Assembly: GCF_032854445.1 (NCBI RefSeq)
Contig: NC_088295.1
Coordinates: 50,827,385 to 50,891,384, forward strand
Reading direction: 5' to 3'
From: Liolophura sinensis
Taxonomy: Eukaryota; Mollusca; Polyplacophora; Chitonida; Chitonidae
Length of the DNA stretch: 64,000 bases
Part shown: piece after piece, positions 18,941-63,188 of the stretch
Numbering within the stretch: position 1 is the first letter of the stretch
Layout: every line of letters begins with the position of its first letter
Notes under the pieces: generated by a model
What the model saw: the letters and a program-made list of their open reading frames with translations, nothing else
Database searches by the model: none
Told to the model about the DNA's origin: nothing
Position numbers and translations under genes: made by a program

Positions 18941-19517
18941 TCAAGAGCCCGCAGACTGATACAAACTATTGTCCACGAAAATTGTCTCTGTATTTGACAT
19001 CGATTTGTCCGGGATTGTATCTCTGGAAATCCCCAAATCCGGCTTTTTCCCGTTTTCCAGGCCACTTCCGTTCGTATTGGGACTTTCTTTATTCCTTCGA
19101 ACGGCGGGTGTGGGCCTGCCATCACTGCTCGCCGAAATTTCGCCTGGTGTCACGTGATCTAATATGTCGGGCGTTATGTAAGTATAGTGGCTAGGTCGGT
19201 CGTTCTTTTGATTCTCTGACGGAACTGGTGGGGGTGGGTCGGAGGGTGGTGGTGATAGAGGACCTAGTGATAAAGGCCGAGAAGATGGTCGTGATGACGA
19301 TGGTGGTGATGCGGGTAAGGCATAAGATTCCCAAGGAGCTGAATACCCTGGAGTGGCATACACTAGTTCGTGAGGGGGTGCTGATGGACGGAAGGTTCCC
19401 GTCCCTTTTCGGTTGTCATCGGCAGGCGAAGAGTTCGCCGTAACGATGAAAGGGTCGACAACTCCTTCTCGGATGTCCATGGTTCTTTCGCTGGACTTTC
19501 GCTCTAATTTTTTTCTC
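18941..19517 (-). CDS. Receptor A exon 6: cytoplasmic tail and stop
   Basis: The acceptor TTGTCCTAG precedes 19517. Phase 2 gives 191 residues after the split arginine, to TGA at 18943-18941. The tail is proline and serine rich. Tyrosines 367, 372, 379 and 427 each begin a YxxP motif (YATP, YSAP, YALP, YITP), the class of site that Crk and Nck SH2 domains prefer when phosphorylated. DPPPPVP (407-413) is a candidate SH3 or EVH1 ligand. A final tyrosine sits in NSLYQ near the C-terminus. Function is inferred from motifs only. Possible polyadenylation signals on this strand are at 17497-17492 and 17449-17444. Confidence 0.75.
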
Positions 19518-22500
19518 CTAGGACAAGACGAAAAACAAAAAAGAAGAAAAATAATTCTATTTATGGGTGCTGGTTTTGTTTAAAACTGATTGATCTATAG
19601 CCATATTTCCAATATTACTGGCCAACAAAGTCTGAAACGGTAAACTAACCATGCGCTATTCTTATTTTCTCTTCAAACTATAATTTCTCCACGCGATGAA
19701 TGCTTTATTTATTCATTTTTTTCTGATGAGACTATGTCTTGATACTATATTTAGCCTCCATAAAAACATTTATTTTTTGTGATTACTAAATACCACTACC
19801 AAGACTCGGTGGCAAGGCTACCCAAGAGGTCACCTGTAGGAAGCACGTGACTACAGAACTTCAGCTTAATACATAAAGTACTCAAATCGTGAATTTGGTA
19901 ATGTACGGTAATTAATATGCACACAGAGCATCAGCGATGGAACATCACCCTTGTATCAATGTGCTGTATATAGATGAAAAACTTCAGGTCAACACATGCT
20001 GTAGGCCTACATTTTGCGATACCACATTTTGCTTAACTTTCATTCTAATACACAAAGCCCGGAATTTGCTAATTTACGGTATTTAATATGCACAGGAAAG
20101 AAGAAAGTAATTGCAGGGACCATTTCAGTGGGAAAAGATCTTCTCCAGAGAAGTACCTCATGCGCGTCGATTTGTTATGAGCGAGGGGGCCATGTCAAGT
20201 GTCGCAACTGTTTGACCGCGTATGTGATGTCGACAAGCTGTCAGTGAATAGGTCCTGTCCTATCTAGTACGCATCAAGTACGCAAGGAAGTTTGGATATA
20301 ATTCACATTTTAATCTAACAGATACAAAAGTTGTGTTTTTCTAATAATCACTCACAATTACGCTGGGGTTGGAGGACCAGGACAGAGGTACACACGTAAG
20401 TCATTAGCCTATATCATAGTGGAACAAAGATTCAAACACGTTTTGGGCAGTGATATTCACCTCCCCACCCACCCACACCTAATACTGCGTAGATTCAGGT
20501 CTGCTTTCACGACAGAATCTTGATAACAGAAAGATCATTGTTTCGCAGCTTTGAAAAGCAAAATTAAAGATCTCACCTTTTCCTACAACAGCACACCCCA
20601 AAGACTACAACAGCTATTAACATGACAGCAGCAGCAATGGCAATTCCCACAATAGTCGCCACATCCAACACTGAAACAATGCAAGGGAAGAATTAGGGGA
20701 TAGAACCCAAACGGGCTATACCTTTGTCAAAAGTGTGCAGTGCTATATCATATACTTTACACTCGGTCATTTAGTATAGCATAACCATAACACCAAAGTC
20801 AAAAGGTTTAATAACAAAGCCTGCGGATGTACAAAAAAAGTTGATGTATCGTACGAAATGAGTTGGCTTGTTTTGTGTGTAATGTTCGAAAGACATAGAG
20901 AGTTGCTGTTCGAGGCATCTATTCTAAACTTAAATCCTTACGTATTAGCACGGACTATGGACTTGGCATAGCTTTTAATACACTTTGAACATCGTTTCAG
21001 CGTTAAATACATATAAGCAATTATTGTCATGCATAGTCCAGGTCCACTGAGATAGGGGGCAGCACATGTCACATCAGCACATCTTACCCTCATCATCACC
21101 TTCGACGTCATCCTCACCGGAAGCTGGGGAATCTTCTGGTTGGGAATGTACCGCTGTCGGGGTCTCCCCACGCTGTTGACATTTTAGCGACAATTCTCCA
21201 TCCCCTGAAGATACACAACGTATAACAGTGAAAATCCCATTGATGGGATATTAACGTCGCTTATAACATTATTTCGGTCATGTCACGGCGATGTATCCTT
21301 GAAGCAGGCCAGGACCCACTTGCATGAAACCCTCTTAAAGTTAAGAGCATGTAACATCCATGGGGACGTAATGCCTACACTGCTGGTTGTCATGGTAGTT
21401 ACATGCTCAACGTTAACAGGGCTTCGTATTAGTGGGCCCTGATCCAATACCAACATTTTATAATACTGCCTCAATAGATCGCCATGTCGAAGACATCAGA
21501 CTCGACCCCCTGACACCGGTCCGATCAGTATTTGTTCCGCTCGTCTAAGGTTGAGCCCCAACGAAGTAGTACTAAAATTACCGATGCTAAAGTCTTACTC
21601 AATCCAGAACTGAGCCCGGAATCTGAAGTTCCGAAGCTCTACCCAGAACGTCATCGTACCCGGTACGTCACAAAGATATCATGTGCAATCATTTTCAAAT
21701 TTCAACGATTTGATCCTGTATGTCACTGGTCAGGGTCTGTCATAACGACAACAGAATGAAATGGACACTCAAGCCTATTTCTATCAAGTGGATCTCCGTA
21801 TGATAAAATGATTTTCTTAAAACATCAACTCATGGCCTTCATTCATCTAGATATCTACCTGAAAGAGTGCTAAAACTTGAAAGTTTCTACATGTACCACA
21901 ACCGAGATTGAGTTTTCAGGAGATTAACATTCGATCCTCAGAGAGGCATTTAACGAAATTTATCCATGATGACTTACGTCTCCACAAACTCGAGCCTTGA
22001 GTATTGTTTAGTCGAGAAATTTTGGCTATGCACACCGAAGTATACCTAGTAATATCGCTTTCGAATGCACAAGTGATTCGGGCAACAGACTGTCAGATGG
22101 GCGAGCGTTGTCCGTAAACGAATATCAATCCATAGACGGATTGTTCAGGCTAGAGTATTCTTTAACGTACCTGTCAGTTGGAAGAGAAATCGCCCGCCAT
22201 CGTCACTGTCTGACTTGAGCTCAACTGCAATCTTTGGTCCTCCGCTAAAGAGTTCTCTGTAGCCATAGTAATCAAGTCGACTTGAACAATCAAACACTGT
22301 GCTTGTAGTAGAGTCGGACATGTTAAGGGACTGTCTGCATGTTTGGGTCTTCTGTTTCAGATCTAGTGTCAGTTCATTGACTGTTACAGACACTTTGCTT
22401 CCATGTTCAGAGGTTATTGAACACGAACAGCCAGAGTTCCTTCCCTTTATATAGTGTGGATACTCTTCGTTTGCAAGATATAGTGTACTGCCCACTTTCT

Positions 22501-25500
22501 GATCATCTGTGCACATCCGGCCGATTGCCTTGTCTGAGAGGAGAAGGAAGTCATTGGTTATTTTCTTCGATGGATCGATACCTGTCCAAGCTGTCTGCGC
22601 TGTTAACGTTTTCAGAATTAATATCGTATACCAATCTCTGATGTACACATACATCATTAAAGAGCTGCACCAGTGTCAAAACCCCTGTGTCTTAAAATAA
22701 AGCTAATGTGAAATAATAAGGATCAAGGCAGTCTGAGTTGTTTGTTTAAATTGTAAAATGGTGAATTGTAAAATGGTGAATTGTAAAATGGTGAATTGTA
22801 AGGGAACAGAAATCGCTGTAATAAATAACGATACCAGATAATGACGATAATAATAAAGGAGTGCTTATCACTTTGCACGATATCACGAAAAACACATGAC
22901 GTAATCAGCAGAGAATGATGCTTACCTGCTATACAGTCATAGTGTATTGTCCTGTAGAGTGAAGTGCCTGGGCAGTCTGGGGAAGATGCTAAGGGGTTCA
23001 GGTGGGTCTCGGAAATGAGACATGTCTGGACTCCAGCGCACTTAGCACTGAGAGGAGGAACGTCCGAGTTCACCCGAAACCTACAGTCTCCAGGCTGAAA
23101 AGAGCACGGTCGCACCCTTTGCTTCCTAACGTTGTACTCCACCCCTCGGATAGCGATCCTCTCTCCGACGTCACATGTTAATTTCGCTCCTTCTCGTTCA
23201 CAGGCGTAACTTGATTTGGGCGTATTGCCGTATGAGTTCCAGAGTTGTCCTGTAAACGAGTATTACAGATTTCATAACTTTCATATAACGAGTCACGAAT
23301 TTCACTTCCTATTAATTGAATGGTTTTTATAAGACTACAATAGAAGATATACAATAGCGTGCGTTGCTTATGACAATTAGGTGTCTCAGATGTGAACTGA
23401 CACCTGTATTTGTGGAATGATTACAGTCGTACGACTCATTTCACCTAACATACATCTGTAAAATATTGAGAGTATCTGTCATTTTCATGAACGGATAACA
23501 AGGTAATATTCATAAGTACTCTGTAATCAAGACGATTTTGATCCAAATGTTTGACCTAAATCCAGGTCGCATCTCTGACAACTGACGTCACGCGCTGATG
23601 TATACGGTGCGAAAAAAAAAAACTGAGGCCATTCCTCGACCTATTCATACTTAACTGAAATATTTCTTCTGCGACACTCGCGGTAAAAGTAGTCTGGCAT
23701 GCAGATATAATTTTCCACAGGATAAGCTTATTCGATGCTACCCAAACGGTTAAATCAAATTTTATCAACAACATAGCGTGAGTGTGCGATACTGAAATTT
23801 AAATAACTTACAATATAAATGACATAGGCAAATTACCGGATACATTCATAAACATGCCCAGTGACTTGATTTATCATTTTTCACTTGCACTGTTACAGCT
23901 TGAACTGTACCGCCAATATACGTTCCGATGTTTTTGATTCAAGAAATACTCGCAAAATATTATGCGAACAATACATTATGGTCTGGACAGTGTAGTGGCT
24001 GACTGATGAGAACAACAACGAGGCCAAATCACTATTACACAGAGACAAAATAGCATTACCAGTAACACTAGCAATTATAGAAATAGCCCACACGTAGTCT
24101 GAGTTCTAATTCATAAAATTAGCTACATATGTGAATATCAGATGACAGGGTTTATTGATTTGATTGGTGTTTTACACCGTACTCAAGAATATTTGACTTA
24201 TACGACGGCGGCCAGCATTATGGTGGGTGGAAACCGGGCAGAGCCCGGGGGAAACCCACGACCATCCGCAGGTTGTTGTAGGCCATCCAACATACGGCCG
24301 GAGAGGAAGCCAGCATGAGCTGAACTTGAACTCACAGCGACCGCATTGGTGAGAGACTCCTGGGTCATTACGCTGCGCTAGCGGATGACAGGATTGAATG
24401 AGCATGGATGTTTATTACAATATATTATAGACGTCACTGGTCTTGTATAACCACACGTAACGGGTGAAATACGACCTCTTGTCAATTTACCTTAGAGCTT
24501 TTTGTCACTGTTAAGGTAAAAGTCTAAATAGTAGCAAATTACATCAGTAACACGGCTTAAGCAGAAATATGTAGGGAAAAATGTAGTGATGTTAATTGTT
24601 ATGAATTTGGGGTCACTGTTCTAGAATCACTCAAAGGCTATGCTGTTATCACATTTAACATACAATAACATTACAAGAACGAAAAGGCTTCTGGGGTGCT
24701 TAGTCCACCAGCAGAACCCTGGTTTATGCCGGAATACAATATAATTAAAGACGTACAGCGCAAAGTAAAACCAGAGCGGCGACGACAGTGTGATAGCTGG
24801 CAAATTGTCACGCGCAACCGATGAAATACGGCCTCTTGGCCGTTTACCTCAGTCAGGGTTTTATTCTCACTACTCATGTAAACGCTTAACCAGTAGCAAA
24901 TTAAAAGCCCTCTAGCACCATACTTATATATATATCGGGGAAAATTTTCTGGCAACAAGATACACAATAACTAGCGATTACAGTTTTACACACTTTCTGA
25001 AAGGAGGGTAATACAGGTATTATTTTTCTCTGAAATGGAACAGAAACGGTGGTAAGATGCAGAGCACAGGACAGGACACAACAACACATACAAGTTGCTC
25101 TGAACAAGAATAACATGAGGACGTCAATATAACCAGAGATTGGAGCACAAGACATTGTGGTGTATGACAACTGGTTATTGAAGGCTAGACAACGCAACAC
25201 AAGTTGCTCTGTACACTGTGTTCGCTGTGCGCCAGTATGTCACCGAAATTAGGGTGTCAGCATGTAGTGCTGGGAATACAGGATGTTTTGGTATGACCTT
25301 GTCATTGAAGGTCAGCAAGCGCAACACACTCAAGTTGTTCTGGCCACGTATTCGCTGGGCGCCAATATTAACCTGAAAATCAGATGCCAGTATTGAGGGA
25401 TTAGAGAAAGGATAGTATTGAGGGGTTAAAGAACATTTAAGGTGCGCATTATTGTGGATATTTTTGTCAACTGAGCCGTCAGTCTGTCTGTCTGTCTGTC

Positions 25501-28500: not shown

Positions 28501-31480
28501 GATAGAGTATAACATGCCTAAATGTCCCCTTTTCGTGCAAATCAGACCATTATTAAACAATTCTCTATAGTCGTAAAAATCAAGCATTAGAATAAAAATA
28601 ACAGCCAGACATACGTGCATGGTACATGATACCACTTCATGCATGGTACATGATACCACTTCATGCATAGTACATGATACCACTTCATGCATGGTACAGG
28701 ATACCACTTCATGCATGGTACATGCATGATACTATTTTATACATGGTACACGATACCTCTTCAGGAAGCTACAACGGTTTCACAAAAATTAATAGACATG
28801 ATACCATGTAATTTAATCATTACTGTTCAAATCCGGCCCTGGACAAGGCATTTGCAGATTCCCCTGTTTATGTGGCCTAGGTGCCAATAAGCGATTGACG
28901 GTGTTCATGTGGCCGGATGCGCAGCCTAACGTTCGCTGAAGACCACTTGTCTTCGATGAATATGGCGTGCATATCTTTACATCACTTATGAGAAAGTTGG
29001 TCAGTATAGCCAGGAAAAGGCCAGTGTAACTTGTCAAAGGTCAGTGGTTTATACACACCGGATTTAACTGACCGCCATCGTACGAGAGAAAAATTCTTGA
29101 GCATGTATAATTATACAAGAATCAAGTCAAATAAATACGCAGTTTACTACGCGAACCACAATTCTAAGAAATGCCAACACAACCCAGCCCCAGCCCACAT
29201 CCGCGTATTAAGGATATACTTTGCTGGCACGGCCAGAATTGAACGAACAAGTTTACTTACTCATGGTTAATTAATCCTGGGTTAAATCACTTGTATCACA
29301 TAGTTCGATGTCATATGACAGAAAAAAAATGTTAAGTACGACGTAAAACCCGAACCAACACATGGATGTTAGTGCAGGAGAAAATGAAACAACTCAGCGA
29401 CTTCGTACACTGCACAGCATCATATAACGAAACCACATAAAGACTAAGGTAAATACCGCCAAATACCCAATAAACCCCGCATGTGCAAAGCAGGAGTGGA
29501 ATCGGCGACAACTGGATTCGGCAACGCGATCTTACTGGTCAAGGGACAGTGGATTCAACGAAGGTACTTCTAGTCCACTGGACCTTATGTGCTCTTATAG
29601 GAATGGTTACCTAGGAAACTGTGTAAATGTATGCACACCGCTCTCAAAAATCTCACAAGTCACCCACCGACACAAAGTGTATGTTTGCACATGCATTTAA
29701 AAACAGGTGTAGCAAATCGATACAAGAGATCTCAGTAGTGAAGATATATGCCCTGGTGTCTGACAATAGTTACTGGTCTTCCTTATCTACACTGTGTAGA
29801 TATATACACAGCCTGTATATATGTAGTAGGCAAAGAGTCAGGCTCTGTAGGATGAGACACTCGGTAGATTTCTGCCTACGTCTCAAAAGAAAAAAAACCA
29901 CAAATGCGTCATAACGTGAACTATATTATTACATATTTTGGCAACCTCTTAACTAGTATTTTTGAACTGGTATGATAAATATGACAAACAAACAACTCTA
30001 AAGCGCCAAACGTGAGGAGGACCGAAGGCACTCTTCCACAGAATGAGGGGCGAAAGCGTTCATCAAAGTCTCATTAATACTTGCATATTTATACGTGTAT
30101 ATGTGATCCTGGGTTGGGACCACGGATCGTGTTGAGGATCAGATCGTAAATGGGTCTTTACATGTAAGGGGTCTATAAATGGTTAGAAATATTTTCAGAT
30201 TAAAACAGGCCAGGTAAACCCATGTTTAGAAGTAAAGGAATGATAGAATGCAATTGTTTTAAAGTATTTAAAATGATGCATCATTCATATCCGTGATTCC
30301 TTCCACTGGTATAGCCATATTTACCAAACTTATACCTGGACAAGCCTCTCACCAATGTAGTCGCTATCAGTTCAAGTGTAGCTTATGCTTGATTCCTCTC
30401 CGGCCGTTAAGTGGGAAGGCTTGCTAGCAGCATGCGGACGGTCGTTGGTTTTCCCCGGGCTCTGCCCGGTTTCCTCCCACCATGAAGCTGGTCGCCGTCG
30501 TTTACGTGAAATATTTTTGAGTACGGCGTAAAACACCAATCAAATAAATAAATATACCTGGGCATCTTAACGAACTCGATGTAAGCCCTATTTCATCTAA
30601 GAAAGGAACATGACGGATGTATCTAATTCCCAGTCGTCTTTATCCCTGCGATCAGAGCCTTTACATCTGAACCGAATTTTTCTCCAGAAAACATCCTGAA
30701 TATATGCTGTATGTTTGTACTCTATACTTCACCTCAATTCACTTATCTACTAGGGTTTTGCTAGACGTGGAATGTATAGTAGCTACTAAAACGAATGCTT
30801 AGCATGGTCTGCTTTACGTACGTACACATGCCAATTACTGCAACAGCCCGAGCGTGGTGTAAGTACATGTAAGTACACATTACAGACACCTTCACAGTTG
30901 AACGCGTCTTCCATCTGCACAATAAAAATGGTTGTCACACAGACCAAAAGTAGTGAATACCAATGATTACCCCCACCCCCCACCCCACCCCCAGGCACTC
31001 TATCACATCACTACACAACTGGTGTTTACACACAGTCACATTTGGGCCTTATACGAATTCATACACGCATTAACATTTTAGGGCTATGGTCAGGGCTTTA
31101 CAGTCATACTTACATCTACGAATACAGTCAGGTCTCAAGGTATTAAGACCGACGTACAACACAGATATATAATTGTATATGGCAGGTAAGGCCTGCCTGT
31201 AAAAATAGCCCAGCTGATAGCCGTCTACCTGACTGGGCATATGACAGCGTTGTTATATTACTAAGCAATGCAGAGCTGTGTGTATAGAAAACTGTATACC
31301 CACGATACCGCTATCAGTGCAACCAGACAGACGATACTCTATGGCCAATATGCCTCATGCCAGCGACACACCGACATATCAACAGCATGCATGGGCGGCT
31401 GGGTGACTTAAAATTAACACTAAACCGGTCCCGTTACCTGTAAGGGTTGCGACGGCGAGAAACGCAGATAGTCGCCTCAT
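18941..31480 (-). CDS. Receptor A: SUEL-lectin / CUB-like single-pass membrane protein, six-exon gene
   Basis: Gene-level entry. In transcript order the exons are 31480-31438, 23249-22926, 22533-22171, 21204-21088, 20670-20577 and 19517-18941. All have AG/GT borders and matching phases (1,1,1,1,2). The lengths sum to 1518 bases, exactly 505 codons plus a stop. Predicted order: signal peptide (1 to about 15), SUEL lectin domain (about 29-121, eight cysteines), CUB-like domain (about 130-243), acidic stalk (245-282), transmembrane helix (about 286-308) followed by CCCRKR, and a cytoplasmic tail (315-505) rich in proline and serine with tyrosine motifs. SUEL domains bind rhamnose or galactose in egg lectins and serve as adhesion modules in latrophilins and EVA1. 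CUB domains are extracellular interaction modules. A cell-surface recognition receptor is inferred; the ligand is unknown. A diverged paralogue lies divergently at 45012. Confidence 0.8.
20577..20670 (-). CDS. Receptor A exon 5: transmembrane segment
   Basis: This is a 94-base exon entered in phase 1 and left in phase 2 (acceptor TTGCATTGTTTCAG, donor AAAAG|GTGAGA). It encodes about 23 uninterrupted hydrophobic residues (VATIVGIAIAAAVMLIAVVV and on), then CCCRKR. The three cysteines at the inner face are possible palmitoylation sites and the basic residues are a stop-transfer signal, so the protein is type I with the tail inside the cell. Confidence 0.8.
21088..21204 (-). CDS. Receptor A exon 4: acidic extracellular stalk
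   Basis: This is a 117-base exon, phase 1 on both sides, with acceptor TGTGTATCTTCAG and donor GAGG|GTAAGA. It encodes 39 residues that begin GDGELSLKCQQRGE and end in an acidic run, SGEDDVEGDDE. It has one cysteine (252). Low complexity and placement between the CUB-like domain and the transmembrane exon indicate a membrane-proximal stalk. Phase and length keep the frame open on both sides. Confidence 0.7.
21310..21441. mobile_element. Fold-back (MITE-like) element in receptor A intron 3
   Basis: The left end CAGGACCCACTTGCATGAAA and the reverse complement of the right end (CAGGGCCCACTAATACGAAG) align for about 45 bases and both continue to GAGCATGTAAC. The interior is about 45 bases. There is no coding capacity. 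Confidence 0.7.
22171..22533 (-). CDS. Receptor A exon 3: CUB-like domain
   Basis: This is a 363-base exon, phase 1 on both sides, with acceptor TTCTCCTCTCAG and donor ACAG|GTACGT. It opens DKAIGRMC. It has the CUB-like order: an early cysteine, a tyrosine-proline turn (EEYPHYIKG), a CxC pair (158, 160), cysteines at 188 and 205, then YGYRELFSG and a closing strand RFLFQLTG. Receptor B has the same five cysteines and YGYRE-FSG. The domain is only CUB-like: the typical early cysteine pairing is altered by the CxC. It is extracellular. The small intron before it contains a 15-bp tandem repeat. Confidence 0.75.
22751..22800. repeat. 15-bp tandem repeat (TTGTAAAATGGTGAA)
   Basis: Three perfect units and a partial one, in the small intron between the SUEL and CUB-like exons of receptor A. 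Confidence 0.97.
22926..23249 (-). CDS. Receptor A exon 2: SUEL-type lectin domain
   Basis: This is a 324-base exon, phase 1 on both sides, with acceptor TCGTTTACAG and donor GCAG|GTAAG. The product carries the eight-cysteine SUEL pattern (residues 31, 40, 63, 70, 85, 91, 107, 120), starting YACEREGAKLTC and ending CPGTSLYRTIHYDC. The spacing, the aromatic YxxxxYxC ending and the CxGxxxC centre match the family. The sugar-contacting YGR motif of egg lectins is replaced by YNV and the DPC motif by PDC, so classical rhamnose binding may be lost, as in adhesion-type SUEL domains. Confidence 0.85.
24150..24383 (-). mobile_element. SINE family 1, long copy
   Basis: Tail, central domain and most of the head, ending at GGGTCATTACGCTGCGCTAG. 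GATGACAGG at 24141-24149 and 24384-24392 flanks it as a perfect 9-base duplication. Confidence 0.93.
24430..24560 (+). repeat. Unclassified dispersed repeat, copy 2 (partial)
   Basis: Shares CACACGTAACGG, GTGAAATA, CTCTTGTCAATTTACCT and AGTAGCAAATTA with 7981-8165. Confidence 0.7.
24740..24925 (+). repeat. Unclassified dispersed repeat, copy 3
   Basis: Shares AATTAAAGACGTA, GCGACGACAGTGTGATAGCTG-type core, TTACCTCAGTCAGGGTTT and CCTCTAGCACCATA with copy 1. Copies 2 and 3 lie in the same orientation about 180 bases apart. Confidence 0.75.
25483..25501. repeat. (GTCT)n microsatellite
   Basis: About five GTCT units. Confidence 0.9.
26728..26952. repeat. Tandem duplication, about 100-bp unit, two copies
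   Basis: GCAAATGAGAAGTGGGG begins copies at 26728 and 26861; both contain ATCCCAGCCAATCAGGCAA and end GAGCATGTATTAAGGAA. G-rich linkers separate them. Confidence 0.95.
28619..28755. repeat. 24-bp minisatellite, about five units
   Basis: The unit is GGTACATGATACCACTTCAT plus GCAT. Being a multiple of three, it encodes an eight-residue peptide repeat (MHEVVSCT) on the minus strand, with no sign of a gene. Confidence 0.95.
29321..29363 (+). mobile_element. Fragment of SINE family 2 tail
   Basis: TGTTAAGTACGACGTAAAAC followed by CCGAACCAACAC resembles the 3' end of the element at 37543-37877. Confidence 0.5.
30340..30552 (+). mobile_element. SINE family 1
   Basis: Begins in the tRNA-like head (CTCTCACCAATGTAGTCGCT) and ends AATCAAATAAATAAA. 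TATACCTGG at 30331-30339 and 30553-30561 is a perfect duplication. Confidence 0.93.
31438..31480 (-). CDS. Receptor A exon 1: start codon and signal peptide
   Basis: ATG is at 31480-31478 with purine at -3. The exon encodes MRRLSAFLAVATLT plus one base (phase 1), with donor ACAG|GTAACG. Basic residues followed by a hydrophobic core are typical of a signal peptide. Phase 1 fits the next exon and completes a glycine. The surrounding sequence is GC richer than its neighbours, as expected near a promoter. The 8.2-kb intron that follows holds SINEs and other repeats. The assignment rests on signal-peptide character, the donor, phase, and the same arrangement in receptor B. Confidence 0.65.
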
Positions 31481-32889
31481 TCCGTCCAAGGGGCCGCCTC
31501 CTCCAACCCCGCCTCCGAAAAGGACAGTACCCTCACCTGTGACCGACCGTCGAGTTACAGGCCGTCATCTGTCGGAACTGGCAGTACACAGTGCATAGCT
31601 CTCTGAAAGCTGGCCGATGCAGTATGTACATACAGGCCAGAGCAAACTCCGCGTCGTTGTAGAGGTGACGGGTTGACCCGAATCACCCGGAACAGGCCTG
31701 CGAAAATTACCGATCGACAGGTTATGTACATGGACAAACGGTCAATGCATTTCTTTGAATGATACCGTCATATGATGCAATTATCATAAAGCCGTTTCTA
31801 CTTCGTGACTGTACGACGGGAAATATAGGGGAGATAGGGAATGGCGTCGTAATAACATATGGAGGGTCACGAGGGGATGGCTCACCCACCTGTCAGCTAA
31901 AAACTGTCACAAATCTGTATACATTTTTATGCTTCCTCGTCAATATATTTATGTAGCTAGAGCTATGGTTAACCAGTGCATAGACATATCAGTACATATT
32001 TAGGGTAGTGAATCACGACAAAATATTTCTGTTCACAGCTTCATGCACGTGTTTACTCAGATCCCCAGGTGAACACAAACCTCGTACAAACTTTTCCCAC
32101 TCCCTGTAACAGCGCACATGAGGCATGCACGCGGTGACAATATATATAATGCATACGGTTATATATCCATATTAAGGTCTTCTGTATTCACACCCGAGCC
32201 AAACTCTCAACCGATGCATCGATTTGATTTCTAAACAATTGTTGCTTTTAATGCTCAATTAGACCGTAGAAGCCAGAGACCTCGGGACTAAGGGTGGCTA
32301 ATATATGCTGAAACGCGTGGACAGCTGGCCACACTAAGCCCGATAGTTACGTGCATGGACCCGATTCCGGTATAATGCTTACAAAGAGCTACCTCTTTGC
32401 TCAATTCCGCTGCATGCGCGTTAGATTCGTCCTGAATACACATATAGCACATTTTGCCACATTCGGTACTTGCCCTTACACCCCCATTCTCTTGTAAATC
32501 TTAGCCGAAATCGAAAAGTTTGTAAGACGGGTCGGAAGTTGGGGGTGACTTTGGTTTATTAATATTATTAATGTTCAGAGCCAACAGGCCAGGAGCCCAT
32601 TTACAGGTCTGATAACACGGATACATACTGAGTAACAGAAGCGTGTAATATACATATGCAGAGCTAGGTAAATATAAAATCCAATTTTGTACAAAGATAG
32701 CGTAAACACAGGTAAACATATGATGGAATTCTTGGTACAGAAATGTTATAAGCCTATGTGTAAACATCGATGAATACATAAAACTATTCGTGTTGAAATT
32801 TCAATAACAAATAAGAATTGTAAACCGTTATAATCACAAGTTAAGATTCGTGAAATGTGTTAATCACAGAAAACCCGTTAAAAAAGAAT
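31481..32889. other. Upstream region of receptor A
   Basis: The first 90 bases (31481-31570) are GC rich and probably belong to the 5' UTR or promoter of receptor A on the minus strand. Beyond that I see no gene or repeat I can name. Confidence 0.35.
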
Positions 32890-33415: not shown

Positions 33416-33419
33416 TTTA
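33338..33419. repeat. Perfect 34-bp inverted repeat with 14-base loop
   Basis: The arm 33338-33371 is the exact reverse complement of 33386-33419 (TAAAGATCTGTACAGGGATA... / ...TATCCCTGTACAGATCTTTA). It sits at the upstream end of the LINE remnant, one arm being LINE coding sequence. Confidence 0.97.
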
Positions 33420-33426
33420 TCCCTGT

Positions 33427-34603: not shown

Positions 34604-34699
34604 TTCCCACACTGCACATTTACAGCGGACGTTGGATTTTGAAACCGCAGTCGAATCCACTTATTTCTGATTTGGCTGAGCCTTTTAGCCAGGAGGAAG

Positions 34700-37877: not shown

Positions 37878-37968
37878 ATTAAGTATTAAATGTCTCTGTA
37901 TGTATAACTTCTCATCAATTACCCGTTCCAAATCTCTGTCTCTCCGTACATAAACCTTCTATTCATCA

Positions 37969-44539: not shown

Positions 44540-45011
44540 TGGATTACGTATGAGAGGAAGGAGCAAGCCAGCTGTCTATATATCGGAGAGGAAGGCGACC
44601 GGAGAGCAGTACTGCGGAACAAAGAGGAACGGCTTCGTATTAGAGAGAAAGAGAGAGTCGGGGACAATTTTGGTTAACGCAATATTATTCCCAGCTTATG
44701 TATCGTGTTTTGACTATAGCTCTCTTTCTCTCACTGTGTTGTTGCTCCTACTGACATTTGTGTTGGGTCAATTAGAGAGGGAATCGGCCGTGCCTTGGCC
44801 ACTGTGGTTACGGATGAGCCGAGCCGTGGACTATATTACAGTAGATTACAGCGCCTACAGATGAGGGTTTAGTGTTGCATGCACCGTTATATCGATCCGA
44901 GCGATTAGCGCCGCGGCGGCTTTTCAGAAAGGCTGGTGTACGTATATACGTATAGCTGAGCGCCAGCCAGGATGTGGGGGACGTAGATGGGGACGTAGCC
45001 GGGGCAGCAAG
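44540..45011 (+). promoter_or_regulatory. Likely 5' UTR / promoter region of receptor B
   Basis: The stretch before the receptor B start is purine rich (44540-44680, repeated GAGAGGAAGG-like words) and becomes GC and CpG rich at 44880-45010. No TATA box or initiator can be fixed. A 104-codon open frame at 44550-44864 on this strand has no recognisable features and may be chance or a UTR frame. Confidence 0.3.
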
Positions 45012-45066
45012 ATGAAGAGGCCAGGCGCCGCCACTTTAGGGACACTCACTCTACAGCTGTTCGCCG
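45012..45066 (+). CDS. Receptor B exon 1: start codon and signal peptide
   Basis: ATG at 45012 has A at -3. The exon encodes 18 residues (MKRPGAATLGTLTLQLFA) plus one base, with a perfect donor G|GTAAGT. Spliced to 60653 it continues G-L-V-L-A-A-S-T-G, completing a hydrophobic signal core with a good cleavage context. The exon sits in a GC-rich, CpG-containing stretch (about 44880-45066). Distance to exon 2 is the main uncertainty, but phase and peptide continuity are exact. Confidence 0.65.
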
Positions 45067-54000: not shown

Positions 54001-57000
54001 CAAAATAGTGCCTATTTGCAGGTGCAGTGTAAACATAAAGCGAGATATAGTAGAATTCTGCTAGTTTGCAGATGCAATGTAAACATGAATTGAGAGATAG
54101 CAGAACACTGCCTATTTGTAGTGGCAGTATAAACATAAAGTGAGAAGTAACAGAATAGTGTATATTTGTTGGTGCAGTGTAAACATAAAGGGTGAGGTAG
54201 AATAACAGTGCTATTTGTTGGTGCAGTGTAAACATAAAGGCTGAGGTAGAATAACAGTGCTATTTGGAGGTGCAGTGTAAACATAAAGGCTGAGGTAGAA
54301 TAACAGTGCTATTTGTTAGTGCAGTGTAAACATAAAGGCTGAGGTAGAATAACAGTGCTATTTGTTGGTGCAGTGTAAACATAAAGGCTGAGGTAGAATA
54401 ACAGTGCTATTTGGAGGTGCAGGGTACACAAAAGGCGAGAGGTAGCAGAGTAGAACCTGTTTGTAGGTGCAGCGTAAACATAATGCCAGGGGAAGCAAAA
54501 TGGTGTCTGCTGTAGATGCAGTCTGAACATATAGCCTATAGCGAGAGGTTGCAAGACGCGGTATTAATAGGCCTACATTTAATGAGTGGTCATATTTTGT
54601 GAGATAAGACGCGGTAAAACGAGATGAAGTTAACGAGAATCTTTAGTCACGGTTTATATTGGCAAGATCTGATTCACATTCAAATGTGGGTCAATAGATA
54701 CCACACAACCGTAGGCACGGTATTACTCTGGCTATAGGGAACTTTGCACAAACCAACCAAATCGAACTGACCAGTATATCTGCCTGTTCCTGAGAACGTT
54801 TTCAACTTCATGCCGTTTGTGTGTTTGCGATTAAAACCATCCCATGTTCATGGACGCGTTGTGCCCTTTTTGTGCGACGACAGAAATGCTGGGAATCCAG
54901 AATGCTATTGGTCGGAAAACATTTTCGCTTGGTGTAAAACGGAGTAAAATGTCGAGCTGGATTTTTAGCCATGTATACATTCATACACATCCAAATACTC
55001 ATCGGGTTTATTCCGGGTCACGTGGCACGCCTGTTTTGTGTAAGTCAGGCTGTGGTCAGTCTCCACAGACCGGCCATGACTGACCTCAATTAACATAAAC
55101 GCGGAACAATCGAATTAGGTGTTGTATTCCCGTATAAATAACAGAAGAAAACGGCCCGCATTCCTTTGTGTACCAACAGCTACATTGAATAATGGAGCAG
55201 TGCTTCTTCACACAACCCCATGTTTAATCCAGGGTATCAGTTGTCACGAGTTAGTGCATTAGTCTTTGCATTTGTATGTTAATTTAACCAACACTTCGCC
55301 AATACAGGCTATACGCTGACGACTGCCCTGACACTCTGTGGAGGAATGAATGATTATGACTAAACGCTGCGTCGTCAATACTTGAGCCATGTCGTATCGA
55401 CACCTGGTATGTGTAGAATGTGCCAAAATGTTATTATCATGATTCTATTGGGACGCTATTTGTGGATGACTCTTCTGAAGATGGGGTTTGAGGCAGCTGA
55501 TGTGGCAATTTACAGGCCAAGGCATGTTTTCTGTTCCAGTATGTTGCGCGATATACGCGTCATTTTTCAGATTTATATTTTTTTTATTTACTTTATTTGA
55601 TTAACGCCCTTCTTTATTTGATTGTTGTTTAACGCCATTCTTTATTTGACTGTTGTTTAACGCCATTCTTTATTTGACTATTGTTTAACGCCATTCTTTA
55701 CTTGATTGTTGTTTAAGGCAATTCTTTATTTGATTGTTGTTTAACGCCATTCCTTATTTGATTGTTATTTAACGCCGTTCTTTATTTGACTTTTGTTTAA
55801 CGGCCTCCTTTATTTGACTGGTGTTTAACTCAATCCTTTGTTTGATTGTTGTTTAACGCCATTCCTTATTTGATTGTTGTTTAATCCCATACTTTATTTG
55901 ACTGTTGTTTAACGCCATTCTTTATTTGACTGTTGTTTAACGCCATACTTTATTTCATTGTTGTTTAACGTCATTCTTTATTTGACTGTTGTTTAACGCC
56001 ATTCTTTATTTGACTGTTGTTTAACGTCATTCTTTATTTGACTTTTGTTTAACGCCATTCTTTATTTGCTTGTTGTTTAACGCCATTCTTTATTTGACTT
56101 TTGTTGAACGCCCTTCTTTATTTCATTGTTGTTTAACGCCATTCTTTATTTTACTGTTGTTTAACGCCATACTTTATTTCATTGATGCTTAACGCCATAC
56201 TCTATTTGCTTGTTGTTGAACGCCCTTCTTTATTTCATTGTTGTTTAACGCCATTCTTTATTTGACTGTTGTTTGACGCCATACTTTATTTCACTGTTGT
56301 TGAACACCATACTTTATTTCATTGATGCTTAACGCCATACTCTATTTGCTTGTTGTTGAACGCCATTCTTTATTTCATTGTTGTTTAACGCCATACTTTA
56401 TTTCACTGTTGTTGAACGCCATACTTTATTTCACTGTTGTTGAACGCCATACTTTATTTCACTATTGCTTAACGCCATACTCTATTTGCTTGTTGTTGAA
56501 CGCCATACTTTATTTCATTGTTCTTTAACGCCATACTTTAGTTGACAGTTGTTTAATGTCATACTTTATTTGACCGTTGTTTAACGCCATACTTTATTTG
56601 ACCGTTGTTTAACGCCATACCTTATTTGATTGTTGATAAGCTCTGTATTGTTGCTTAACGCTATATTGTTGTTTAACGCGATCGATGTGATAAATCCGTT
56701 CGAAGTGATTTTTTTCAGCTTTTCGTGCACCACTGTATCTCTGAATGTATTTTTAAAAAACATGGAACTGTGGAGAGATTTGTGTATCAATCGCCTTAAT
56801 TTGCGCAATTGTTGTAAGCGCCATGCTCTGTTCAAAAGAAATGGATAAGATTTTGCTCAAGCAATCACCCAAATCTACATGTAATATGCAGGGCTGATGA
56901 GTGCTGCAGTTTTAGTGCTACTATTTTTTCTACAGTTTATAGTGTCAAAAAGTTTCTCCTTCACAAACATGAGCTGCAAGAGAAAAGTAGGAACCGAAGG

Positions 57001-60000
57001 GAAACCAATCTTGATTACAGACAACTTGATGCATGTTCAGTACCGAGGCCATTTTGTTGGTTACCTATGTCGTTTCTTTCAGTGTGAACGTTGTGTTGTT
57101 AATGGAAAGGCATTTATTTGCTCATTTTACATTCTACATTCATTTCTCCTGAACACACATTGCACAATATTCTGTTTCTAACAAGTGTTGTTCGTCTTGC
57201 GTTTTTGTATGTGTGTAACTTTTTGCGATGAGGACAAACCTGTATTTTGAAATTAGCGGCATTTATTGCTATATAACAAGGAATGAAGGCGTCAGACTTA
57301 AAATGATGCAGTACCTTATCTCATGCCTTTGTTTACCTACCGTTCGTGTTCAAATGTAGACTATCAGTGGCTTTAATGATATCGCAATTGGCCAGAACCG
57401 TGTTCTACGCCATATAAGGGCAGTAAATCACGCAGGCAGGGGTTGTCCCACAGTAGCTTACAGTTCATTACATTACAGCTTGATTGTCTTTCTGGGCTTA
57501 CTGTAGACATATACAGGGATATATAGCCAGCCTTACCACTGTGATGTACACAGCCGTCTAATTTGCCATGCAGACTGGTAGACAAGGCACCACACAACTT
57601 AGAGAAGCTTAGAGAAGCGCTAAGCTCTAACTGCACGTAAAAGATGTCAGCCAATTGTCTTTACAACCGCCCAGCCACTCTGGAGCTGATCACATTTCTG
57701 ATGTCATTGTCATTTCCTTGTCCATAATCAGATGTTCAGTGCTCTCTTTCTTTGGACGAGAAACAAATTAAGTTGCACTCAATAGGTCACGGACAATGTT
57801 GTATGTGTGCAGCATATTTTCTCACAGCAAGAAAAGATCTTCCTTTAATAACATTTGACTTAATTGTATACGGCAGTCGTTCTTGATAGAAATGATTAAA
57901 CAGGTTTGCATGGGACCTTATCAAAAGTCATATCATAATCAAAGTTAGAGTTATTGAGAAAGGAAACATCTTACTTTGTTTCCGTAACCGCCAGTCAGCA
58001 CCACCATCCAAACAAAGCTTTTGTGTTTCTGTTTATTATATTTATGGGTTTGTTTTTATTGATAACACAGCTTCCTGATACCTAATACTTCAGTGCGGTG
58101 CGTGAAGTAGTTTACGCATTAGAACGGAAGTCACGTAACGACCTTGCTCATTTTTATGATGTTTTGTACTGCCTGGTGGCTGTTTTATAGGCACCTTGGG
58201 AGCTGTGTTCAGTCACAACGTTCCGACATCTGAATAAGCTTGGCTGGAACATGGATTTGTGCAGCGCTTGGAACAGCATATAAAGTCTTGACTGGTTGCC
58301 ACAGCGGATTTTAATCTCTAACATTATCACCAATTAACCCATATTGGCATTCGGCTTTAAATGTCATAGGAATTCTGATCAATAAATTGCACGCATCAAT
58401 ATTTACATCTTGTAGAGATTGGAAACCTCAACCGCTCGTAAAAATGTAGCGATTAACACAAATGCGTTGCAGAGATATAAAGATTAATGGGTTCAAATTG
58501 ATAATTGAGTTAAGCTGGCAGAAAAAAGACTTGTCGGAATCGCACACAATACATTATTGAATAGAAACTATTACATCAGAGCTGTAGTTATGAAGAGGCC
58601 CCGAGCCTATAGTAGCGATTGTGGAAATTGAATATGTGAATTGTTTTTAATGTCTTGGTTCTCTCCGTCATAGGAGATTTGTAATTAAACGTGCTTTAAA
58701 TCATTCATTGCAGGCCACTAAATATAGCCGATTTTCCAACTTGTTGTAAAGTAAACAAAATTTCATACATGTAATACAATTGGTTTTCTGGCAGCACACA
58801 GTGTTCAGCTTTAAAGCTTACACAAATATACATGGTAAAATCCCAAATACTCTCAATATGGGAACTCAGACGAATCTAGAGTGTGTAAAATATATCAATA
58901 ATTTAAGACGATGGCCTCCGATATGCTATTTATTTCTTTAGGTTGATGGTTTCTTCGTGTTGTGTTTTCAACCTTGCACACGAACAACTTATATTTATTC
59001 ATTTATTTATTTGATTGGTATTTTACGCCGTACTCAAGAATATTTCACTTATACGACGGCGGCAAGCATTATGGTGGGAGGAAACCGGTCAGAGCCCGGT
59101 AAAATCCACGACCATCCGCAGGTTGCTGTCAGACCTTCCCACGTACGAACAACTTATAAGACTATATGAACGTAATGTTTATAGGCCTATAGACCTAGGT
59201 CGTATATATGCCAAAAACGCACTTTTGTCGCCAAACATGTTGATCGGATTCATCACAGGCTCATGATGTATAACAGACGGTCTTGTACAAAAGCTTTGTA
59301 CATGAGGGCAGGAACGCGGACATACGGAATTAAACCGTACAGCTCTTCAGCACAGATTGGTAGGGCAGTTCCAATTAGAACGAAGCTGTGATGATCGACG
59401 TCGGGGTAATGTTGAAACAAGACCAAAAAGTTAAAAGCGAACTGTCAGTTAGATTGCTCCGCTCCTCCGCGCCTTTATGGCAATATTTAATGAGGAAAAT
59501 CAATATAGAAGCTTTCTCTAATAGAGATTGCATGATGCGCAGAATCGAAGCCAACTCGACTCGTTTCTGGGAGATAACTGACTGCTCGAGTTTGGCCTTT
59601 TTGGTGTTCTGCCTTCTGAGAATGGGAAATCTGTGGCCTAAACTGTGGTGCGCAGTCCTCATTTCTATATAAGCTCAAGTCCCTTGCATACTTCCATCGA
59701 TCGGTACCCAGGGATGATTTGAGTCCAATCAATCAAGATCAAGACTGCATCTTCGCTCAGTTTCCAGGCCCGCTCCGTACCCCTACAGCACAGTCAAATT
59801 CCAGGCAATTGCCCAAAGAGCAATTGTTCGTCCTTTCAGTAAGGACCAAGGTTTGCGGTTTCGTGCGGCATTGTAGTTTCTGAATCAAAAAGAGCAGTGG
59901 AAACTTTAGAACCGCACCATCTCAACGACTGATAAAATTTAGCCCATCCTTGGAAAGCTTTCCTACAGTTTAACCTTGCATATATACCGACTATATATCT

Positions 60001-63000
60001 TCAGCTCGTCATGATTTCGGAACGAGAGTATAGACGAATAGCCCCTCGGTTGCAGCCATGTATGGTCTGTTTCTTCCTTTCGAATGGCTCTTATGAACAC
60101 ATAAAACTATTCCTGGGAATCAAAACTCTACCAGTACTCTAACATCGATGGCTTAACATGTAACGTGACACAATGTAAAGTAAAGACGATGCCTTGTAAA
60201 TGCAACGCCTATTGGCTTCATCTAAAACACCACATATTATAAACAGTTTTTAATCAGAGGAGTTTGAGACTTGTTTTCGTTTTATTTACACAGGCAAGCT
60301 TTGACCAACCCAAATTAATTGGTAACCCAGACCAGCGTCGTATAAATGAAATATTCTTGGGTTATGGGTACTACCTGCGTACAACATTTAAAGGTTTGTC
60401 TTTGTAGAGGCTAAAAAGAAAGAACAAAGTTCCCTGCTTAACTCACGTGTCATTTTGATGGACAGAAATACAAGTTAATAAAATCTCTCCTACTTCTTTT
60501 CTTTTGTCTTGGGAGACGCGACGAATTTCTTCGCTTTCTTCCTCCATAGCCCAGTGCAGTGTCGTATAAGTGAAATATTCTTGGCTACGACGTAAAACTG
60601 GAAACAAATAAGTAAACGAAATAATGCATCATGTTTTGTTTTATTTTTCTAGGTTTGGTTTTGGCAGCATCTACCGGCCTCGTGCAGCATCATTCCACGT
60701 CTTCCTGTAAAGGATACCATGCCAGCCTTAGGTGCCCTCCCAAACATGCCATCGCTATTAGGACGATTTTGTACGGCTCACATCGGGAGTACTGTGACCA
60801 GCGAAGGCTTGGTCTCGACCACTGCTGTGCGCCGTTTGTCGACGATTGTGTCTTCTCACACAAAGCAGCCATATTGTCCATGAACACGTATTGCTCTGGG
60901 CTTGATTCGTGTTATGGCTCTTCGGAGCCCACTGGGGAGATGCCCAATCACAATTGCGGATTTCATCTCTCCTACATAAAGGTCGACTTCGACTGTGTGC
61001 CAGGTACGTACACACGGGTGGCTTAGTGCTTATGTATACTTAACATTTCCATGTTTGCAGCATAATATAGAATATAAAGTTATCCCTATCATGACATTCA
61101 TAAGACAACCTTAAAGGTTTTGCCCTTTAAGGCCAACACAACCTTCGAAACATAGCACATGGCTGATCATTACAGTATCAAATGGAACTTTGCATGTCCC
61201 AAATAGAGATAACCTCACGTGATCTCGTCAAGGTAGAACCTTGCAAACAACAGGGTCCATAAAAAGATGCGTTTTACATTGAAACTTTAGAAAACCACCT
61301 TTACCTATGTGGTATTATCGCAGATAGCCCACTAAGAGCTAACAAACCGCTTAGTCCAGAGGAAATTCCAGACTCTAATTATCGGTCTTTGTTTTGATCG
61401 GGTAAAGGACAAGCTTATTCTAAAACACAGATAAGCCTGAAATAGCTACCAAAAATCGAGCTGTAATCCCTCCACTGACGTAATGGTCAATGCAGGTTCT
61501 TCTCGACAAGGCTGTGTGAGGTAACGAGTAAAATCAGGACAAGTTTTCAATTAATTATCTTCTATGTCCCGTAATGACATTGGTTTATGATGCAGTTTAA
61601 GAAAGGCACTCATTACGAAAAATAAAAACGTACAAAAAACTATAGATTGGTTGTCAGGTTTCAGATTGCCAGGAAATAAAAGTAATTTTCCGAAACACCT
61701 TAAAAATTCTGAGGCTTGCTGCATTGAATAGTACTTGGATCTTTTTGTGTAGCCTATACCCCAAGGCAATGGCGAAACAATTTGAGTGGATGCTTGTAAC
61801 AATACAAAATTTTTTGCCTTACAATTATAGACTGCTGATAATTTGGAGAAGTTGTTGATGGTATGAAAAAACAACTGATGCAATCCCGAGAACGTTTATA
61901 ACATATATCCAGGAGCACCGGTATGGAAACAGCCTTTCAGATGTTTATGTCTAAAATAGTCGCTAAGGAGAAACCGTTATAAGTTATCGCAAATATACAG
62001 AACCTTTGAAAGTTCTGATGACCTACATAGGGTTTTGCCAAAACCATAATTGGCAATGTCCAAGCACAGTCATCTGTAATCTTCATCTTTTTTGACGGAT
62101 ATGATATAATCAAGCCTTGAGCTCTATTATTCGCACTATTTTCATATCGTTCCAACTTGTAAATGACAAAGCTCTTGCAAAGTATCTAGACCTAATCGAT
62201 AAATATCACAGGAGAAGTTGGATTGTCTGGAGAATGGTTGTGAGTTGGTTAATGGAGTGGACTGATCGAGCTAATTGAACAATGCATGATTTGGCGTGTT
62301 TAGCACATTTAGTGATTATGGTTTATATAGATTTGTTCATGTGCGCACGATGCTCCAAAGCTGTAACATCAATGACAGTTTAAAATAGAATCACAAGTTT
62401 TGCTTCCACATCTCGCCAAGTTCACCATTCACTTGGCAATGCATCTTACGGCGCTTTCTCACTAAAGCCCAAATAGGTTTTATAAATTGCAATTAACACC
62501 GTTGTGAGTTTTTTTTTACCTAATTTCACTTAAGCTCTGGCTCTAGGGGTGTTACTCTATGGGCGTCGAGATTACTCTGACGATAGGTGTGGCAAAGATT
62601 TTGTTTGGCCAATAATGGCTCTCCAAATCAACGTTAATGCCTGATGCAGTTACCTGCCCATGTGAAATATATCTGGCAATCCTTGGCCGAACAAAATTTT
62701 GCCAAACCTAACGTCAGAGCAAAATCGTCGAAGCTAAAGATCCCATAAACGTTGTACAGTATCTTCTTCTATTGTCTTCACTAATATTTAGTATTAAATT
62801 GCAGAAAAAATTGTGAGCGAATTCTGTGTGGATAGTACCTACACTGACAGTCAGCTATACATCAGTAGCGCCGCCTATCCATCCTCCATGTCGGGAGATA
62901 ACTCTTCATGCAATTGCCTGGTTACGGCTGGAAGGGATACCAGAGTTAACATCAGCATACAAGCAATAGACGTCTTATTCACAGGGGTCGGATACCGGCC

Positions 63001-63188
63001 TCGGAAATGTGAACAGAAATTGATGATTAAATCGGATGAAGAACCAGATGAGAACTTTTCTCTGGACTGCAACGACCAGAAAATGTATGGTTACCGAGAA
63101 GTATTCAGTGGAAGAGGGAACAAATGGCTTCTCACTTTGTACAGTCATCCCGTCTCGGACCGGGGAAGAGTGTGGCTGGCGGTCAAAG
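45012..63188 (+). CDS. Receptor B: SUEL-like / CUB-like secreted or membrane protein, partial (3' end beyond window)
   Basis: Gene-level entry. Exons 45012-45066, 60653-61003 and 62805-63188 are joined with phase 1 at each border, giving 263 codons so far with no stop; the rest lies at or beyond the right edge. The order is signal peptide, a SUEL-like domain with ten cysteines, and a CUB-like domain. It has the same exon order and intron phases as receptor A, and the CUB-like exons share YGYRE, FSG and five cysteines, so the two are paralogues. They are divergently arranged. The first intron is 15.6 kb and packed with minisatellites. Whether B also has a transmembrane segment and signalling tail cannot be seen here. 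Confidence 0.72.
45455..46000. repeat. Degenerate minisatellite, ~33-36-bp unit
   Basis: Repeated CTAATGCTATATACCG and CCAATCCTCACTAG words alternate about fifteen times with drift. Confidence 0.85.
48640..49560. repeat. Minisatellite, ~54-57-bp unit, about sixteen units
   Basis: Unit words are AACATGGAATTGACTGG, GATTGTGTTGAACAGAGG and GTATGTGATTACGCGACAAG. The array yields a spurious 196-codon minus-strand frame. Confidence 0.92.
50083..50343 (-). mobile_element. SINE family 1, full length, young insertion
   Basis: The only complete copy. On the minus strand it starts GGGGCCTCCGTGGCTCAGTC (tRNA-like head with A box TGGCTCAGTCGG), has a B-box-like GAGTTCAAGTCC, the central domain, the conserved 3' domain and an 18-base poly(A). 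A perfect 12-base target-site duplication, TGTTGAATATGA, flanks it at 50071-50082 and 50344-50355. Confidence 0.97.
51690..52070. repeat. Minisatellite, 33-35-bp unit, about ten units
   Basis: TAATGACAC recurs at 51730, 51763, 51798, 51833 and 51868 with GTTCCTGCAA and CTGATTCAGACTTCA words between. Confidence 0.9.
52095..52458. repeat. Minisatellite, 32-bp unit, eleven units
   Basis: TGACACAGGCTGACGGGAAA plus TGTACGTCTGTC, strict 32-base spacing (for example 52111, 52143, 52175). Three overlapping minus-strand frames of more than 100 codons are products of this array. Confidence 0.97.
52600..53135. repeat. Minisatellite, 32-bp unit, about sixteen units
   Basis: Unit CCAAACTGTATGGATCTAAA plus GGATTTTATATA, at 32-base spacing. 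Unit sequence is unrelated to the neighbouring 32-bp array. Confidence 0.97.
53910..54510. repeat. Minisatellite, 49-51-bp unit, about twelve units
   Basis: GGTGCAGTGTAAACATAAAG recurs every 49 bases in the right half and about 51 in the left, with GAGGTAGAATAACAGTGC words between. Confidence 0.95.
55590..56640. repeat. Minisatellite, 28-bp unit, about 37 units, SINE-tail related
   Basis: Unit TTTATTTGACTGTTGTTTAA plus CGCCATTC, at 28-base spacing. It resembles the first 28 bases of family 1 read from its tail (TTTATTTGATTGGTGTTTTA plus CGCCGTAC). Confidence 0.95.
56641..58990. other. Unassigned part of receptor B intron 1
   Basis: No repeat or exon recognised in this stretch. Confidence 0.4.
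58994..59144 (-). mobile_element. SINE family 1, 5'-truncated with perfect 14-bp duplication
   Basis: ACGAACAACTTATA at 58980-58993 and 59145-59158 brackets the tail and central domain; the head is absent. Confidence 0.96.
60553..60622 (+). mobile_element. SINE family 1 tail fragment beside the SUEL exon
   Basis: GTGTCGTATAAGTGAAATATTC, TTGGCTACGACGTAAAAC and AAATAAGTAAA. A similar smaller fragment lies at 60335-60365. They end about 30 bases before the receptor B exon 2 acceptor. Confidence 0.75.
60653..61003 (+). CDS. Receptor B exon 2: SUEL-like lectin domain with ten cysteines
   Basis: This is a 351-base exon, phase 1 on both sides, with acceptor TTTTATTTTTCTAG and donor CCAG|GTACGT. 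The domain starts SCKGYHASLRCP and ends YIKVDFDC; ILYGSHREYC aligns with the YGR segment of SUEL lectins, and CSGLDSC with the central cysteine pair. Ten cysteines (37, 46, 66, 76, 77, 84, 99, 105, 120, 133 in the joined protein) include the eight expected plus an adjacent extra pair at 76/77. A fragment of SINE tail lies 40-90 bases upstream of the acceptor. Confidence 0.75.
61004..62804 (+). other. Intron 2 of receptor B
   Basis: Bounded by GTACGT and TTGCAG. The 110-codon minus-strand frame at 61551-61883 shows nothing recognisable. No repeats seen. Confidence 0.6.
62805..63188 (+). CDS. Receptor B exon 3: CUB-like domain
   Basis: This is a 384-base exon, phase 1 on both sides, with acceptor TATTAAATTGCAG and donor AAAG|GTCAGT. 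It begins EKIVSEFCVDS, includes AAYPSSMSG, the CNC pair, then YGYREVFSGRG and a final strand GRVWLAVKG. Five cysteines align one for one with receptor A exon 3, and the length differs by only seven codons. Confidence 0.78.

Follow-up and report, generated by a model that had tools for sequence, protein, structure and literature searches.

A pair of predicted single-pass SUEL–CUB membrane receptors in the chiton Liolophura sinensis

What does a membrane protein recognize if its ectodomain combines one SUEL lectin domain with one CUB-like module, and is it a receptor at all? Two genes of the chiton Liolophura sinensis raise this question. They lie on opposite strands of a 64,000-nucleotide stretch of chromosome C1 (C1:50827385-50891384; 'the window', in which positions are counted from the first letter), gene A on the minus strand and gene B on the plus strand, in head-to-head orientation. 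We favour, with moderate confidence, the reading that both encode diverged type I membrane receptors, in which a SUEL–CUB head is followed by a transmembrane segment and a tail.

Results

Gene models and predicted topology

Exons were reconstructed from GT-AG splice sites and open frames in the window and in about 40 kb beyond it (assembly of 609 Mb in 632 contigs). Gene A runs from 31480 to 18941 and comprises six exons encoding 527 residues, in the order signal peptide, SUEL, CUB-like module, acidic stalk, transmembrane segment and tail (Table 1). A first-pass annotation of the window had placed these exons accurately, except that it ended gene B at 63188, which is not terminal. Gene B extends 3.6 kb further, to a transmembrane exon and a tail exon past the window, so the earlier coordinates contain the whole of A but only the outer portion of B. 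B has 489 residues if no stalk exon is counted; three candidates for one were tried and none settled. The single-pass topology with a cytoplasmic tail proposed earlier is now also predicted for B and, because B reaches a transmembrane exon and tail, A, B and a third gene described below are all predicted type I membrane proteins. With the B stalk unsettled, all three share one exon-phase plan: signal peptide, 1, SUEL, 1, CUB, 1, (stalk, 1,) transmembrane, 2, tail.

The signal peptides of A and B were assigned by eye. Their first exons are short (43 and 55 nucleotides), with some 8 and 16 kb of intron after them, three in-frame acceptors are candidates for exon 3 of A (by eye) and the B stalk was not found. 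These features would fit gene models that are partly wrong, with the first exons or the links from CUB to transmembrane exon being artefacts, or with one gene being a dying copy. We judge this improbable, as the frames are all open, the phases agree in three genes, protein similarity between A and B covers both domains, and the first exons sit on CpG peaks: exon 1 of A overlaps the CpG-richest 400-base stretch of the window (31451-31850) and exon 1 of B the third richest (44851-45250). Both first exons are plausible rather than proven. The long first intron of B also contains several short tandem arrays (52080-52460, 52640-53120 and 53930-54500; by eye).

A and B are paralogues

The proteins align by BLASTP at 5e-16 (26% identity over 278 columns), and the borders between signal peptide, SUEL and CUB-like exons are in phase 1 in both genes. 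The CUB-like exons are 33% identical, with all five cysteines and the YGYRE/FSG motif aligned. Exon rebuilding and alignment therefore bear out the first-pass description of the pair as paralogous SUEL plus CUB-like genes with shared exon order, phases and cysteines. Its proposed origin by inverted duplication found no support: a DNA comparison of the two loci gave nothing but short, repeat-like matches at E up to 1e-3, so an inverted duplication, if there was one, is too old to see. Repeat-like interspersed stretches up to 88% alike occur in both loci (24151-24383, 30343-30554, 50090-50315 and 59001-59147), and peptides such as YSRIFH and ASIMVGG recur in the frames of many loci.

SUEL domain

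Pfam searches with A and B, the check suggested in the first pass, returned SUEL and CUB signals in both proteins, but each under its curated cut-off. For the one SUEL stretch in each protein, PF02140 gave E-values of 4.3e-4 (A) and 3.4e-4 (B), or 21.0 and 21.4 bits against a cut-off of 31.4. The eight-cysteine SUEL frame is present in both, with 8 cysteines in A and 10 in B. Single-sequence searches of the PDB matched the A domain to CSL3 (E = 8.3e-5) and the B domain to latrophilin-2 (E = 9.5e-4), and a profile of nine SUEL domains from the L. sinensis genome matched a rhamnose-binding lectin at 3.4e-21. Fold was assessed for A only: an AlphaFold2 model of its SUEL domain has a predicted local distance difference test score (pLDDT) of 84.2, and the first 13 Foldseek rows obtained with it were all SUEL-type lectin domains (latrophilin-3 at E = 2.4e-5), with modest query TM-scores (template-modelling scores) of 0.52-0.62 and root-mean-square deviations of at least 4.8. 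On the cysteine frame, the PDB matches and the model for A, the SUEL assignment is solid for both genes.

CUB-like module and a third gene

From A and B alone, the CUB call is weak. A profile built from these two exons reached C1r in the PDB at E = 0.92, below an antibody chain (0.058) and a synthase (0.49); because two unrelated chains rank above C1r, we excluded this profile as CUB evidence. The call instead rests on the third gene, at C1:54.000 Mb, 3.1 Mb from the pair and first listed by a Pfam SUEL scan of the genome. Its exons encode a signal peptide, a SUEL domain (28.2 bits), a CUB domain (55.9 bits, over the PF00431 cut-off of 21.4), a threonine-rich segment and a transmembrane segment. 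The borders as far as the transmembrane exon are in phase 1 and the one that follows this exon is in phase 2; for the tail, an exon of 37 residues is no more than a candidate. Profiles of A and B match both its CUB domain (P = 8.2e-6) and its SUEL domain (P = 2.2e-6). Four of the CUB-like cysteines align with this certain CUB, and two aligners disagree on which cysteine of a CxC pairs with its second cysteine. A three-gene CUB profile matches C1r at 3.7e-8, a value that is partly the third gene's own signal. Given the common exon-phase plan, the certain CUB of the third gene and the profile link, the CUB assignment of A and B is strengthened.

The SUEL plus CUB order was found in three genes of the genome. 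As genome-wide queries, the CUB-like exons returned A and B as the only significant matches. A PF00431 genome scan gave 150 matches among 150 scored of 205 candidates, and, of these, the 54.00 Mb match alone has a SUEL place from the Pfam scan within 10 kb; because A and B themselves are not among these 150, other divergent CUBs can be missed. The CUB count omits three weak places (E = 0.82-5.2) and a frame at 48.31 Mb (L026). With a local CUB profile, one of the three (L006) reaches E = 0.019 and the frame E = 0.038, and neither passes the inclusion line. The piece (L027) around another CUB place, at a distance of 46 kb from the SUEL of 48.36 Mb, had no SUEL match listed. CUB places also form dense runs at C1:78.16-78.22 Mb and C1:85.78-85.82 Mb, which are probably multi-CUB genes.

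A sparse group of SUEL loci on C1

The first-pass annotation guessed at a larger cluster, and the genome supports a sparse one, of at least ten SUEL loci in 8.9 Mb of C1. At E up to 10, the Pfam scan found SUEL at 13 places, seven of them in the 47.46-56.36 Mb interval of C1 (with gene B but not gene A), three at C1:17.6 Mb and three at C7:1.63 Mb. A group-member query added C1:48.316 (E = 0.039), 50.975 (9.4e-4) and 52.902 Mb (8.7e-11), as well as one further SUEL domain at 48.358 Mb. The 48.316 Mb locus has no Pfam match at E = 0.01 and rests on a local profile (E = 2.2e-12). At the gene level there are 12 SUEL loci, ten within the 8.9 Mb and two elsewhere. Twelve random points never placed more than four in one 8.9 Mb stretch in 20000 trials, in a test that assumes independent loci, which is untrue of duplicates, and that includes three loci from the group-member query.

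Besides A, B and the third gene, five loci (47.46, 48.316, 50.975, 52.902 and 56.36 Mb) have a SUEL exon that is followed, on its own strand, by a transmembrane segment as a candidate partner. At 48.357 Mb, there are three SUEL domains with no transmembrane segment identified, and at 49.02 Mb a tyrosine-rich, tail-like frame with the transmembrane exon unsettled. In the 4 to 10 kb or so on each side of the SUEL exons of these seven loci, no CUB passed the local profile, and in the roughly 40 kb past the window no SUEL match passed the inclusion line. Eight weak SUEL places outside the group (C9:13.74, C4:1.87, C4:8.24, C7:29.59, C6:37.68, C6:32.58, C3:7.87 and C9:23.64 Mb; E = 0.06-5.7 in genome searches) were dropped; the local SUEL profile accepted none of them, the best E being 0.22.

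In C1:48351000-48369999, the three SUEL domains are consecutive, one of them sharing 37% and 47% identity with the other two, and threonine/proline-rich frames lie between or behind them. The tail-like frame of the 56.36 Mb locus (piece C1:56357500-56367499, reverse strand, 8387-8986) has many Y..[ILV] motifs (YDNI, YDRV, YDHV, YNQL and YDVL) and is unlike the tails of A and B.

Loss of the sugar-site residues

Mouse latrophilin-1 contacts sugar through Glu42, Tyr63, Gly117 and Lys120, and the substitutions tried at Glu42 and Lys120 strongly reduced or abolished binding, according to PMC2430599. In the C1 group, all 12 SUEL domains have a residue other than lysine at the Lys position, and the glutamate is missing in 11 of the 12, the exception being gene A (by eye, from alignments and motif contexts). 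A keeps the glutamate and has leucine at the Lys position; B has lysine at the Glu position and serine at the Lys position. Residue placement is uncertain for the 56.36 Mb domain, and the 12-domain set leaves out an incomplete SUEL-like frame of the 49.02 Mb locus (piece L015, 4224-4478; E = 1.5e-4). By contrast, SUEL pieces outside the group, at C7:1.63 Mb and C1:17.6 Mb, have CE and KYLE motifs. Because the lysine that latrophilin-1 needs for rhamnose is absent in 12 of 12 domains, classical sugar binding in the C1 group is unlikely.

These losses bear directly on an alternative in which A and B would be innate immune receptors that bind microbial glycans through SUEL, as secreted rhamnose-binding lectins do. 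Recognition gene families are often grouped, and a set of grouped, diverged genes on one chromosome fits such a family. The loss of the lysine in 12 of 12 domains and of the glutamate in 11 of 12, however, argues against glycan binding, and we regard this alternative as unlikely.

Cytoplasmic tails

The 194-residue tail of A has six tyrosines, four of them in YxxP motifs, and a PPPP stretch; four YxxP were reached by 54 of 10000 shuffles. The tail of B has ten tyrosines and a run of six prolines, and its three Y..[ILV] motifs (YENI, YNTV and YASI) were reached by 100 of 10000 shuffles. We take YxxP to be a Crk-type and YxN a Grb2-type SH2 site. Pfam matches in the transmembrane regions, DAG1 among them, lay under their cut-offs and were rejected.

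Long proline-rich tails with adaptor-like motifs would also suit neuronal adhesion or guidance co-receptors, which, like EVA-1 or latrophilin lectin heads, would meet protein partners at synapses or growth cones. EVA-1 is a co-receptor for SLT-1/Slit (PMC2430599), and the solved structures include, by their titles, latrophilin lectin domains with teneurin and FLRT. A and B, however, have neither the two SUEL domains of EVA-1 nor the seven-transmembrane part of latrophilins, and a neuronal role of this kind seems about as doubtful as the immune one.

Table 1 Exons of genes A and B (window positions unless prefixed by C1)
Feature	Coordinates	Strand	Content
Gene A exon 1	31438..31480	-	Start codon and signal peptide; phase 1 out
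Gene A exon 2	22926..23249	-	SUEL, 8 cysteines; phase 1 in and out
Gene A exon 3	22171..22599	-	CUB-like, 5 cysteines, YGYRELFSG; phase 1 in and out
Gene A exon 4	21088..21204	-	Acidic stalk; phase 1 in and out
Gene A exon 5	20577..20670	-	Transmembrane segment, hydropathy up to 2.98; phase 1 in, 2 out
Gene A exon 6	18941..19517	-	Proline-rich cytoplasmic tail, four YxxP motifs; stop
Gene B exon 1	45012..45066	+	Start codon and first part of signal peptide; phase 1 out
Gene B exon 2	60653..61003	+	SUEL, 10 cysteines (eight-cysteine frame plus two); phase 1 in and out
Gene B exon 3	62805..63188	+	CUB-like, 5 cysteines, YGYREVFSG; phase 1 in and out
Gene B transmembrane exon	C1:50892528-50892612	+	Outside window; phase fits
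Gene B tail exon	C1:50893534-50894128	+	Outside window; 198-residue tail; phase fits

Neighbouring genes

Elsewhere in the window, a fucosyltransferase-like frame at 10889-11516 (plus strand) matches Pfam Glyco_transf_10 in two parts (E = 4.9e-16 and 4.2e-16) and is split over two frames at a long G run, which marks a broken copy or an assembly error there. Outside the window, Glycos_transf_4 matches at C1:50912624-50912920 and C1:50913364-50913624 (plus strand; 33.2 and 30.6 bits) probably represent exons of a single enzyme-coding gene that lies downstream of gene B.

Discussion

Our results are consistent with A and B being receptors whose head consists of one SUEL domain without classical sugar-binding residues and one divergent CUB domain. 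We infer expression at the cell surface. The ligand of this head, borne by a cell or by the matrix, would most likely be a protein or of some other non-classical kind. Clustering of the receptors could then lead to phosphorylation of the tail tyrosines, and the phosphotyrosines could recruit SH2 adaptors, with WW or SH3 adaptors perhaps also joining in the case of B; this adaptor step is tentative, and clearly less probable than the receptor reading as a whole. Once recruited, the adaptors might alter adhesion or engulfment.

Several results weigh against this reading. First, the models of A and B are computed from genomic DNA alone. Second, a tree of 12 SUEL rows does not group A, B and the third gene; it is poorly supported, with long branches and 0 of 9 inner branches well supported. 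Third, Pfam CUB scores are under the cut-off in both A (E = 0.025, 15.3 bits) and B (E = 0.0069, 17.1 bits), and in the CUB-like exon of A they are exceeded by KdpC (E = 3.8e-4, 20.7 bits, below its cut-off of 24.1). Neither B nor the third gene has a KdpC match at E up to 1, and we therefore dismissed the one in A as chance. An AlphaFold2 model of the same exon, made from three sequences, has a pLDDT of 35.7 and was unusable. Finally, the motif signals in the tails are two low values among eight uncorrected tests. Other counts in tail B are ordinary (one YxxP, reached by 7836 of 10000 shuffles; Y.N, by 4715; PPxY, as PPPY, by 1860), and no similarity is detectable between tails A and B. As 600 of 1000 shuffles reach the score of the real pair, we rejected homology between them, and a shared signalling route is unsupported.

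More broadly, the 47.5-56.4 Mb region of C1 could be a sparse receptor complex. Its ten or more loci would descend from one type I receptor with a single SUEL, and would since have given up sugar binding and traded the second module (CUB, mucin-like stalk or none) and the tail, yielding a lineage-specific recognition repertoire that might be immune, neural or concerned with self and non-self. This scenario is speculative, and we would give it a low probability. The grouping on C1 offers material for studying the diversification of a receptor set by module swapping between phase-1 introns. If the receptor reading of A and B is correct, single-pass SUEL–CUB proteins without a sugar site would add a receptor design, and the set would provide a clean test of the proposal, made in 2008, that membrane SUEL domains bind proteins (PMC2430599). 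The authors of that latrophilin-1 study favour non-carbohydrate ligands for membrane SUEL domains and name latrophilins, PKD1-like proteins and EVA-1 as membrane SUEL proteins.

SUEL and CUB are known domains, and their combination as in A and B was not found described: in the literature that we covered in part, no SUEL plus CUB single-pass receptor family was found, and the architecture may exist unremarked in other animals. The accessible parts of other reports mention three SUEL lectin genes in the Aplysia immunome, with no architecture stated (PMC9334734), and SUEL in large membrane-associated multidomain proteins of bdelloid rotifers, without detail (PMC8878817). Figure legends in an Oikopleura house paper (PMC3390340) and a zebrafish adhesion-GPCR (G-protein-coupled receptor) paper (PMC4335454) carry symbols for both CUB and Gal_Lectin, which may belong to different proteins.

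The CUB profile of the three genes has its best PDB relatives in the CUBs of C1r, C1s and MASP, from which A and B differ by an extra cysteine (the CxC) and by lacking an aspartate two places after the next cysteine, which the third gene has. This CUB aspartate has a calcium-related role. With CSL3 and SUL-I, they share the cysteine frame and, for A, the SUEL fold; those proteins, however, are soluble tandem lectins with two and three SUEL stretches matched, whereas A and B have a single SUEL, are predicted membrane proteins and have lost site residues. Latrophilins combine the lectin domain with olfactomedin, GAIN and seven-transmembrane parts. Like A and B, latrophilins (ADGRL1-3 and Caenorhabditis elegans LAT-1) carry SUEL in the ectodomain, and they are among the closest solved folds to the A domain; by contrast, they are adhesion GPCRs (PMC2430599), whereas A and B have one transmembrane segment each (by hydropathy in A and by the transmembrane exon in B) and a CUB-like module. 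EVA-1 and EVA1C (C21orf63) resemble the pair in being single-pass proteins with a SUEL ectodomain in which sugar residues are partly lost, but have two extracellular SUEL domains (PMC2430599), where A and B have one SUEL and one CUB-like module.

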